IMG/VR virus record: IMGVR_UViG_3300019458_000620
Coordinates: 1-38,732 of that record
From: a virus
Strand: one strand, 5' to 3'
Length of the DNA stretch: 38,732 bases
Every line of letters starts with the position of its first letter. Position 1 is the stretch's first letter. Positions 23,420 through 26,609 of the stretch are shown here, piece by piece. A model generated the notes under the pieces. The model was not told the origin of the DNA, did no database searches, and was given only the letters and a program-made list of their open reading frames with translations. The position numbers and the translations under genes are program-made.

Positions 23420-23830
23420 ATGGCACCTGAAGTTCAAACCCCGGCCCCGCCGGAGATTCTGCCCGCGCCCTTGCAGGCGCAGTGGCGCAAGACCTATGCC
23501 GAGGCGCTGGAGCAGGCCAAGGCGGACGAGCCCGATGATCCGGCGCGGCAGAAGATGCTGGCACGCCGCGAAGCCAACCGGCTGCTGCGCACCCCGAAGC
23601 TCACCAGCTACGAGGACGCGGCGGGGCTGAAGGACTGGCAGGTGATCTCCCGCGTCGAGGCGGACGGCGTTCTCAAGGGCGTCACCTTCGACGGGAAGAA
23701 GTTCCGCTTCCCGGTCCCGGCGAAGCGCGCCGGCGGCAAGCCCGCGGCCAGCTACGCCGAGCTCGAGGAACAAGCCGCCGCGAAAAGGCGCGACCACGAA
23801 GCGGCTGCCAAGGGCCAAGACGGACGCTGA
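23420..23830 (+). CDS. Small hypothetical head-region protein
   Basis: ATG 23420 follows GAGGAGG. The 136-residue product has LPAPLQAQWRKTYAEALEQA then DDPARQKMLARREANRLLRT, reminiscent of ChaB-like helical domains found near prohead protease genes. A short beta segment follows (DGVLKGVTFDGKKFRFPVP), then a charged helical tail. It lies between the F-like protein and the protease/capsid fusion, so a role in head assembly is likely. The exact function is unknown. Confidence 0.68.
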   Translation: MAPEVQTPAPPEILPAPLQAQWRKTYAEALEQAKADEPDDPARQKMLARREANRLLRTPKLTSYEDAAGLKDWQVISRVEADGVLKGVTFDGKKFRFPVPAKRAGGKPAASYAELEEQAAAKRRDHEAAAKGQDGR

Positions 23831-23867
23831 CGCTGCCGCCGCGCAGAAGTAGGCCCAGGAGGGCACG

Positions 23868-26138
23868 TTGACGCTGACCACCGACGAGCTGCGGCGGCGA
23901 ATCGCTGCCGCGCTCGCTGAAAAGAAGAGCGCGCTGCTGCCGGGCGAGTTCACTGCTCGCCTGGCCGCAGCGGCTGAAGGCGACGGCTGGGTGTGGTCGG
24001 TGGTGGTCTGCAAGGCCGGCTGGGGCAACGCCCACGTCTGGGGCCCGGAGGAATACGCACGGCGGCCGCAGTACATCCCGCGCGAGGTCTTGCCGCAGAT
24101 TGCGGCCGCGGTCAACGGGGCGCGCTTCCGCCGGCGGCACCCGCTGGAAGATGAGGGCGATGGCGAGGGCATCCCCGACCTGGTCGCGGGCTGGGTGGAC
24201 AACGCACGCGTCGTTGGCGACGAGGTGCACGCCGACGTCCACCTGCTGCCTACGGAAACAGAGATCCGCGCGCGACTGCTGGCCCTTCGCGAGGCCGGCC
24301 AGATGGGCCTGTTCAACGTTTCGCTGCTCACCTACTTCCGCGGCCGCGCCGACCGAATCGAAGGGCGCGATGCGCTGGTGATCGAGCGCATCCACAAGGT
24401 GATCGCTCTCGATATGTGCGCCGAACCCGGATGGGGCGGCAAGTTCTTGGAGACGCGGCTGGCCGCGTCTCTGCGAGATTTCCCCGACGCTCTCGGGGAA
24501 GAAAACGGCACGCCGGTCAACGGCGCTGACCGAAACAAGGGAGGGACGATGAAGCAACGCATTTTGGCATTGCTCGCAGTGCTGGCATCGTTCGCCTCGG
24601 ACCGCGCCGCACAGCTCCAGGCGGGGCTGGACAGCGTGCCCGAGGCGGAGCTGCCCAAGCGCTTCGAGCAGGTGGTGGACGCTTTCGTCGAATGCTCGAA
24701 CGGAGCCTTCGCGCATGCCAACACCGGAAAGGGCCAGGACCCCGAGCTGATCAAGCGGGTGCACGAAGCGCTCGCCAAGCTGGGCGAACTGCTCAAGCAG
24801 GGCGGCGGCGGCGAAGAGTTCCTGGCGAAGGCGAACGCGGCCCTCGACGAGGCCAAGCGCATCCAGTTCGGCAACGTGCTGGACGCGCGACTGAAGGCCG
24901 CCGCGCTTCCGGAGGAAGCCGAAACCATCGTGCGCGGGCACTTCAAGGACCGCGTCGCCGACGAAAAGGCGGTAGACGCGGAGATTGCCGTGGTGAAGGC
25001 GGCTTTCGCGAAGTACAGCCAGATCGGGCGCGTCAGCGACGCTTCGCCAGTCACGATGGGCCTCGACACCCAGGAGAAGCTGCAGCTCGCGATGGACGGG
25101 ATGATGGGCGTGAAGGCGGCGCAGGGCAAGGGTGTGCCGGCTTTCCGCGGCATCCAGGAAGCGTTCATCGAGATCACCGGCAGCCGCGACTTCGCCGGCA
25201 TCGCGTCGGGCGGGTTGTATCGCGTACGAGCGGCGATCACCACGGCGTCGCTGCCGCAGATCCTGCTCAACTCGATGACCAAGCGGTTGCTCCAGGACTA
25301 CATGGCCATCGGGTGGAAGGGTTTGGACCGCCTGGTCCGGTTCGTGGGCGTCACCGACTTCAAGACGCAGGACCGCGTGCGGCTCGGGTACTTCCCGGAC
25401 CTCGCGACCGTGGCTGAGGACGCTGGGTACGTGGAAATCGCCAATCCCACGGACGAGAAGATCAGCTACGCCGTGTCGAAGAAGGGCAACCTCTTCACGC
25501 TGACCGAAGAGACCATCCGCAACGACGATACGGGCAAGCTGCGCTCGATCCCGGAACGCCTGGCGCGCGCCGCGATCCGCACCGCCAAGCAGGCGGTGAC
25601 GGACAAGCTGATTACGCCCGGCAACTACGACCCGGACGGCGTGGCGGTGTTCCACGCGACCCACGGCAACCTGGGCTCGGTGGCGCTTTCGGCCGCCGAG
25701 CTCGATGCGCGCGAGGTGGCGATCTTCGGCCAGACTGAACCGGACTCCGGGAAGAAGCTCGGCTTCCGGATCAACTACATCGTCGTGCCGATCAACCTGG
25801 ACTCGACGGCGCGGCAAATCAACAACAACGACGAGGCCTCGAACAACTGGGCCGGCCGCTTCGGCGCGGTGGGCGAGCAGTATCCGGGCGGCATCATCGT
25901 CGACGAGCAGCTCGCCGACACCAATGACTGGTACTACGGCACCGACGAAGCGCCGCCGCTGGAAATGGGCGTGCTCGACGGCGCTGACGGCCAGCCGCCC
26001 GTGCCGCAAATCCTCCTGGCCAACGACCCCACCGTGGGCCAGCAGTTCACGAACGACCGCGCGCAGTACAAGGTGCGCACGGTGTTCGGTCTGGACTGGA
26101 TCGACTTCCGCGGCATCGGCAAGAACGTCGTGGCGTAG
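23868..26138 (+). CDS. Prohead protease-scaffold-major capsid fusion
   Basis: The 756-residue ORF starts at TTG 23868, fixed by AGGAGG at five bases. Residues 1-220 are a prohead protease, with HPLED (H91) and NVSLLTYF (S152) as probable catalytic His and Ser. Residues 228-400 are a charged helical scaffold (ELIKRVHEALAKLGELLKQG). From about residue 420 it is an HK97-fold major capsid protein of the Mu gpT kind (FRGIQEAFIEITGSRDFAGI, then VFHATHGNLGSVALSAAELD). Such fusions are known in some phages. Odd here: the linker NKGGTM is encoded by AAGGGAGGG-ACG-ATG, a full ribosome site and start, so a separate 529-residue scaffold-capsid product from 24549 is likely. Self-cleavage would free the capsid. 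Confidence 0.92.
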   Translation: MTLTTDELRRRIAAALAEKKSALLPGEFTARLAAAAEGDGWVWSVVVCKAGWGNAHVWGPEEYARRPQYIPREVLPQIAAAVNGARFRRRHPLEDEGDGEGIPDLVAGWVDNARVVGDEVHADVHLLPTETEIRARLLALREAGQMGLFNVSLLTYFRGRADRIEGRDALVIERIHKVIALDMCAEPGWGGKFLETRLAASLRDFPDALGEENGTPVNGADRNKGGTMKQRILALLAVLASFASDRAAQLQAGLDSVPEAELPKRFEQVVDAFVECSNGAFAHANTGKGQDPELIKRVHEALAKLGELLKQGGGGEEFLAKANAALDEAKRIQFGNVLDARLKAAALPEEAETIVRGHFKDRVADEKAVDAEIAVVKAAFAKYSQIGRVSDASPVTMGLDTQEKLQLAMDGMMGVKAAQGKGVPAFRGIQEAFIEITGSRDFAGIASGGLYRVRAAITTASLPQILLNSMTKRLLQDYMAIGWKGLDRLVRFVGVTDFKTQDRVRLGYFPDLATVAEDAGYVEIANPTDEKISYAVSKKGNLFTLTEETIRNDDTGKLRSIPERLARAAIRTAKQAVTDKLITPGNYDPDGVAVFHATHGNLGSVALSAAELDAREVAIFGQTEPDSGKKLGFRINYIVVPINLDSTARQINNNDEASNNWAGRFGAVGEQYPGGIIVDEQLADTNDWYYGTDEAPPLEMGVLDGADGQPPVPQILLANDPTVGQQFTNDRAQYKVRTVFGLDWIDFRGIGKNVVA
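24537..24551 (+). promoter_or_regulatory. Internal ribosome-binding site and start at the protease/scaffold junction
   Basis: AAGGGAGGG is followed after three bases by ATG 24549, in frame with the upstream protease. The site sits exactly at the domain boundary. It would produce excess scaffold-capsid relative to protease, like the nested scaffold genes of Mu (Z in I) and lambda (Nu3 in C). Confidence 0.65.
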
Positions 26139-26167
26139 TTGTCGTGACGCCAAGGTGAAACCCGGGC

Positions 26168-26194
26168 CCCGGCCCGATGAAGAATCGGGCCGGG
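26168..26194 (+). terminator. Hairpin after the capsid gene
   Basis: There is an 11-base-pair perfect GC-rich stem (CCCGGCCCGAT / ATCGGGCCGGG) with the 5-base loop GAAGA. No T-tract follows, so it may attenuate, process or stabilise the transcript rather than terminate it. Confidence 0.45.
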
Positions 26195-26219
26195 CGAGCT
26201 CCAACAAGGAGGGAGCCAA

Positions 26220-26609
26220 ATGCCGAGAGAGAGAATCCGCCGGTTCAGCGTGGCCTACCCGATTGGGGACGGCAACCTGGCCGCCGGCGTTGACAAGTTC
26301 ATTCACGTCGTGCGCTTCCGGTGCCGGCTGCTGGAAGTGACGCTGTCGTTGCGAACCACGGGCGGCACGTCGGGGAACACGGACGTGGACGTGAACAGGG
26401 ACGGATCGAGCATCCTGACAGCGCCGGGCCTGCGCATCGCGCAAGGAGCGGCCACCAAGCACGTCACGGCCGCGCCGGCGGCCGCAGCGGGACACCCCAG
26501 CGGCCTGGACTGCGCTCCGGGCCAAACGATCAGCGGCGACATTGACGCCATCCCGGGGACTGCTTCCACGGGCGGCGTGGTGACGCTGCATTTCGCGGTG
26601 ACCGACTGA
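26220..26609 (+). CDS. Capsid decoration-like protein
   Basis: ATG 26220 follows AAGGAGGGA. The 129-residue product is beta-rich with little charge (FIHVVRFRCRLLEVTLSLRT, then GQTISGDIDAIPGTASTGGV) and ends VTLHFAVTD. Small beta-rich proteins directly behind the major capsid gene usually decorate or cement the head, or form head fibres. I recognise no specific family, so the role rests on position and composition. Confidence 0.62.
   Translation: MPRERIRRFSVAYPIGDGNLAAGVDKFIHVVRFRCRLLEVTLSLRTTGGTSGNTDVDVNRDGSSILTAPGLRIAQGAATKHVTAAPAAAAGHPSGLDCAPGQTISGDIDAIPGTASTGGVVTLHFAVTD

Follow-up and report, generated by a model that had tools for sequence, protein, structure and literature searches.

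How a phage can fuse its prohead protease to its capsid protein is a puzzle, for a protease attached to each of the hundreds of shell subunits is hard to square with assembly. A virus record of 38,732 bases (the whole stretch analysed, called the window here) carries a fusion of this kind, and a complete ribosome-binding site with an ATG lies at the joint between the two parts. The question is whether ribosomes start there. From the evidence described below, the internal site is very probably a working start, and the gene a nested one that would give a 756-residue protease form along with a more abundant 529-residue scaffold-capsid form.

Layout of the fusion gene and its two predicted start sites

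The window encodes a Mu-type transposase (phrog_310), then the terminase large subunit, the portal and an ORF of 756 codons on the plus strand (23868..26138; phrog_133/4523). Translation of the window gave a single open frame from the TTG at 23868 to the stop at 26136–26138. PF25209 (Phage_capsid_4) matched residues 456–750 with 118.2 bits (E=1e-33), well above its gathering threshold of 27, and the protein therefore belongs to this family. NF045541 (scaf_prot_MCP2, prohead protease/MCP fusion) matched only partially, at 158.5 bits (2.6e-46) over residues 425–753, which is below its curated whole-protein cut-off of 525 bits and leaves the protein outside that family. The general architecture of a prohead protease/MCP fusion is present, a protease fold and an HK97-fold capsid sharing one frame. 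No Rfam family or tRNA was found in the window. An antisense ORF of 969 codons (23682-26591, minus strand) covers the whole fusion gene and is probably a by-product of the high GC content.

The N-terminal protease part gave no match in the family search. Its structure model (residues 1–186; 23868..24425) resembles T4 gp21 and herpesvirus assemblin, with pLDDT of 84–97 across residues 41–180 and the T4 prohead protease gp21 (5jbl, E=1.4e-6) as the top structure match; H91, S152, and D182 are invariant among the homologues. There follows a linker (residues 187–227; 24426..24548), predicted to be disordered (pLDDT below 50), whose length and sequence vary across the homologue alignment. The next region (24549..25019; residues 1–157 of the short form) is a delta-like scaffold, all-helical by predicted secondary structure, with helix predicted from residue 2 of the short form onward. 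The HK97-fold major capsid domain (25233..26117) completes the protein, and its model matched HK97-fold capsids and encapsulins (E about 1e-4). The predicted short form (mean pLDDT 71) thus has the layout of an HK97 gp5-like precursor, a helical scaffold (delta) domain and then the HK97 fold. In HK97, however, the protease gp4 comes from a separate gene, whereas that of the window is fused upstream in frame.

The internal Shine–Dalgarno (SD) sequence, AAGGGAGGG (24537..24545), sits in the linker predicted to be disordered, exactly at the domain boundary. The first-pass annotation had described AAGGGAGGG-ACG-ATG as a near-ideal start in frame at the joint, and this was confirmed: it spans 24537–24551 in the last linker codons, preceded by ccgaaac and followed by aag after the ATG. 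The peptide at the joint is NKGGT-M, and the ATG (24549..24551) is codon 228 of 756; a product starting there (24549..26138) would have 529 residues and begin MKQRIL. The distance from the GGAGG core to the ATG is 4 nt, which is slightly short. The long form also has a strong SD of its own, AGGAGGG (23857..23863), 4 nt before its TTG. Predicted pairing with the anti-SD is similar for the two starts, −10.8 kcal/mol for the long form and −11.8 kcal/mol for the internal one. Predicted mRNA folding at the internal ATG is weaker than in synonymous shuffles (−7.3 vs −9.4 kcal/mol), and the GC fraction is 0.49 there compared with about 0.65 upstream. Both features resemble those of ordinary gene starts. 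Because ATG is favoured over TTG and the local structure is weaker, the short form would be expected to predominate.

Conservation of the internal start

A search of viral contigs yielded 64 homologues, 36–50% identical to the window protein in their best segment, and the protease was fused in frame in all 61 that had protease sequence present. The joint codon could be read in 52 rows, window included: it was ATG in 51 and ATC in one. Methionine was kept at the joint in every row covering it except that of L010, which has no M in the column and carries GAGGGAGACCAG-ATG two codons upstream. The spacing from SD to ATG was kept at 4–10 nt.

The first-pass annotation had suggested checking whether homologues keep the SD more than codon usage demands. 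Under synonymous resampling according to the codon usage of each gene, AGGAG or GGAGG was expected before the joint start in 10.6 of the 52 genes; it was observed in 49. The peptide alone already gives an expected rate of about 20%, and the homologues are related, so that the SD and ATG counts are not independent. At the other in-frame ATGs of the window gene and its homologues, either motif occurred in the same window of positions in 11 of 637 cases. Among non-redundant sequences an SD-like motif was present in 22 of 22, the motifs of L056 and L046 being weak and that of L046 (GAGGA) the weakest.

Codon choice at the site is also unusual. The glycine codon at position −4 is GGA in 47 of 47 genes, while GGA makes up 222 of the 1,538 glycine codons in these genes (14%). 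Among 43 conserved glycine columns, the −4 column is the only fully fixed one, and no other is fixed on GGA; the columns that come next have settled on GGC, the common codon. The codon ahead of GGA-G specifies any of E, Q, K, I, and R, yet its third base is A in 18 of 20 non-redundant sequences, against 6.6 expected. The GGAG also lies in different codon registers, the first in the window clade, the second in L043 and L064 (where AGGAG is encoded through Arg-Ser), and the third in most fusions of the S1 type (as Lys-Glu, Gln-Glu, or Glu-Glu). The RNA motif is therefore the same under different peptides, and by these comparisons the conserved signal is in the RNA and not in the peptide.

These observations bear on the idea that only the peptide is constrained, the linker (for example EGA-M) being a protease cleavage site or a folding signal whose codons happen to look like an SD. 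EGA is indeed the common peptide here, and the SD rate expected from the peptide is not negligible. This explanation is nevertheless very improbable, since E gives way to K, Q, R, I, or G while the wobble base usually remains A, GGA is invariant despite being an uncommon glycine codon, and the three registers encode different peptides. Taken singly the genes are not decisive: a stringent synonymous test, in which the best ATG in the zone was scored in shuffles, gave a median p of 0.23 for genes of the window clade, as AGGAG is already allowed by the peptide EGA. It is the whole set that makes the case for a conserved start. On this basis the nested design put forward in the first-pass annotation, with forms of 756 and 529 residues, is supported at the level of sequence, both SD and ATG being conserved beyond codon usage.

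In a separate observation, agcgctaccgaaggagca was nearly invariant just before the internal ATG in L008, L012, L016, L030, L033, and others, which extends the conservation upstream of the SD itself.

Split genes and distant fusions

In Dulem virus 34 the protease (185 aa) and the scaffold-capsid protein (513 aa) are encoded by separate genes. Nearly all of its non-redundant relatives are split in the same way, with a strong ribosome-binding site before the second gene, and the stand-alone scaffold-MCP genes of this branch have about 490–530 codons, close to the length of the predicted short form. One member, L321, is a true in-frame fusion of 747 open codons that retains GCGAGGAGGAAAAAAAGAA-ATG at the joint (GAGGAGG...ATG). 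In the capsid-domain tree L321 is nested within the split branch; therefore, as read from this tree, at least one fusion arose by loss of a stop with the start retained. Three other apparent fusions from this branch (L249, L251, and L252) were rejected, their protease and capsid being in different frames. The first-pass annotation had offered, as an alternative origin for the window gene, two genes that lost the stop between them. The split branch with its similar ribosome-binding site, and the fusion in L321, lend this independent support at the level of sequence; in the window's own branch 61 of 61 genes are fused, and the tree gives no direction for the deeper change between split and fused genes, nor an order of events for that branch.

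The same data suggest a further reading, that the internal start is a relic of fusion, inherited from a scaffold-capsid gene that once stood alone, weakly used or silent and with no present function. As the split branch and L321 illustrate, a ribosome-binding site can travel along with a fusion. A silent site in a variable linker, however, should have decayed at 36–50% protein identity, yet GGA is fixed in 47 of 47 genes and in L010 the SD has shifted together with the ATG. We consider a relic very unlikely, if the most probable of the rival readings, and prefer a start in present use.

A search of genome contigs gave only two loci, both on Acidobacteria contigs, and each encodes a capsid-only relative of about 360 aa (L322:2797-4056 and L323:2977-4143), which offers no joint to compare. 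No protease or scaffold was detected upstream of these ORFs and a regulator-like gene adjoins them; they may be a remnant, or an element put to another use.

The survey was extended to nine named fusion phages of both protease types, non-ClpP (S1, PBb001, LPPA33, RcOceanus, and Mae-JY22) and ClpP-like (Gifsy-2, JBD68, yong2, and mEp043). In all nine, an ATG preceded by an SD-like motif lies in frame where protease and scaffold meet, which leaves a product of 450–498 aa; some of the nine also have other internal ATGs with equal or better scores. Boundary ATGs with strong anti-SD pairing were counted in non-redundant members of each clade: 24 of 25 for the window clade (15.1 expected), 10 of 11 for the Gifsy clade (4.6 expected), and 26 of 38 for the S1 clade (14.9 expected). 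The Mae clade showed no excess (4 of 7, 3.6 expected). In the Gifsy-type clade the SD is less telling, because the peptide RxEEF is conserved too.

Many of the S1 exceptions form one subclade of the capsid-domain tree (support 100/98). Its contigs seem to have few SDs at their other gene starts, and the joint keeps its ATG, preceded by a leader that is 50–67% A; the contigs with few SDs and an A-rich joint leader are L185, L188, L189, L191, L192, L195, L220, and L233. This combination fits SD-independent starts. Another fusion, L193, has a GTG start after AAGGAG. A start in frame at this position is present in most of the distant fusions, those with the unrelated ClpP-type protease included.

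An SD-like stretch could also act on elongation, pausing ribosomes to give the protease time to fold ahead of scaffold synthesis, with no initiation at the site. The position of the motif, exactly at the domain boundary, would suit such a pause. For a pause, no ATG at initiation spacing would be required, yet 51 of 52 rows have one, with the spacing kept at 4–10 nt, and the subclade that lacks the SD retains the ATG with its A-rich leader. A pause is accordingly the least probable of the readings considered, and initiation at the internal ATG is preferred.

Relation to known nested genes and the proposed assembly scheme

Nested starts for scaffold proteins are known in lambda (C/Nu3) and Mu (I/Z). 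The window gene resembles Mu I/Z in that a single frame encodes protease and scaffold and has a ribosome-binding site and start inside it, at the scaffold boundary, as expected of a nested in-frame scaffold gene, and the gene order is also like that of Mu. Such genes leave the capsid protein to a separate gene, as Mu does, but the capsid domain of the window is in the same ORF and the nested product includes it. The link to Mu I/Z drawn in the first-pass annotation therefore holds as an analogy, and in gene order; the window gene cannot be counted as a Mu I/Z gene proper. Lambda differs further: its protease is ClpP/SppA-like, and its capsid protein E is separate. Gifsy-2 reportedly has protease, scaffold, and capsid in one gene (Effantin 2010). 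Like the window gene, the Gifsy-2 and MD8-like genes combine all three functions, and the present analysis found an internal SD-ATG in Gifsy-2 and JBD68; their protease, however, is of the ClpP type, whereas that of the window is of the gp21/assemblin type.

In Pseudomonas MD8-like phages the protease, scaffold, and capsid functions are combined in one gene, and the paper describing them makes no mention of an internal start (PMC8508860). A plausible internal start has been noted at Val177 of the protease gene in Mu-like phages of P. aeruginosa (PMC4378225). Our literature search, whose coverage excluded most subscription papers, that on Gifsy-2 among them, turned up no tripartite gene for which an internal start is reported. 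Nested starts and tripartite genes are each known; within the literature covered, we found no description of the two combined.

We infer the following scheme for the two products. Ribosomes starting at the TTG at 23868 would make the 756-residue protease-scaffold-capsid protein, a minority of subunits, and those starting at the ATG at 24549 would make the 529-residue scaffold-capsid protein, similar to the HK97 gp5 precursor and accounting for most of the shell. The long form would join the procapsid through its scaffold-capsid part, identical to that of the short form, and the minority protease domains would thereby be carried inside. There the protease would then cut off the scaffold and the linker.

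We lean, with some reserve, towards the view that phage protease-scaffold-capsid fusions generally have a nested start, whichever of two unrelated protease folds they carry and whether their hosts are SD-using or SD-poor, with initiation setting the ratio of protease-bearing to plain subunits. L321 serves as an example of how such fusions can arise, with the stop lost and the start kept. Databases and proteomic studies that list the full-length fusion alone would miss the probable main product, the true capsid precursor. A conserved internal start would solve the assembly problem without a second gene, and it offers a testable mechanism of protease dosage.
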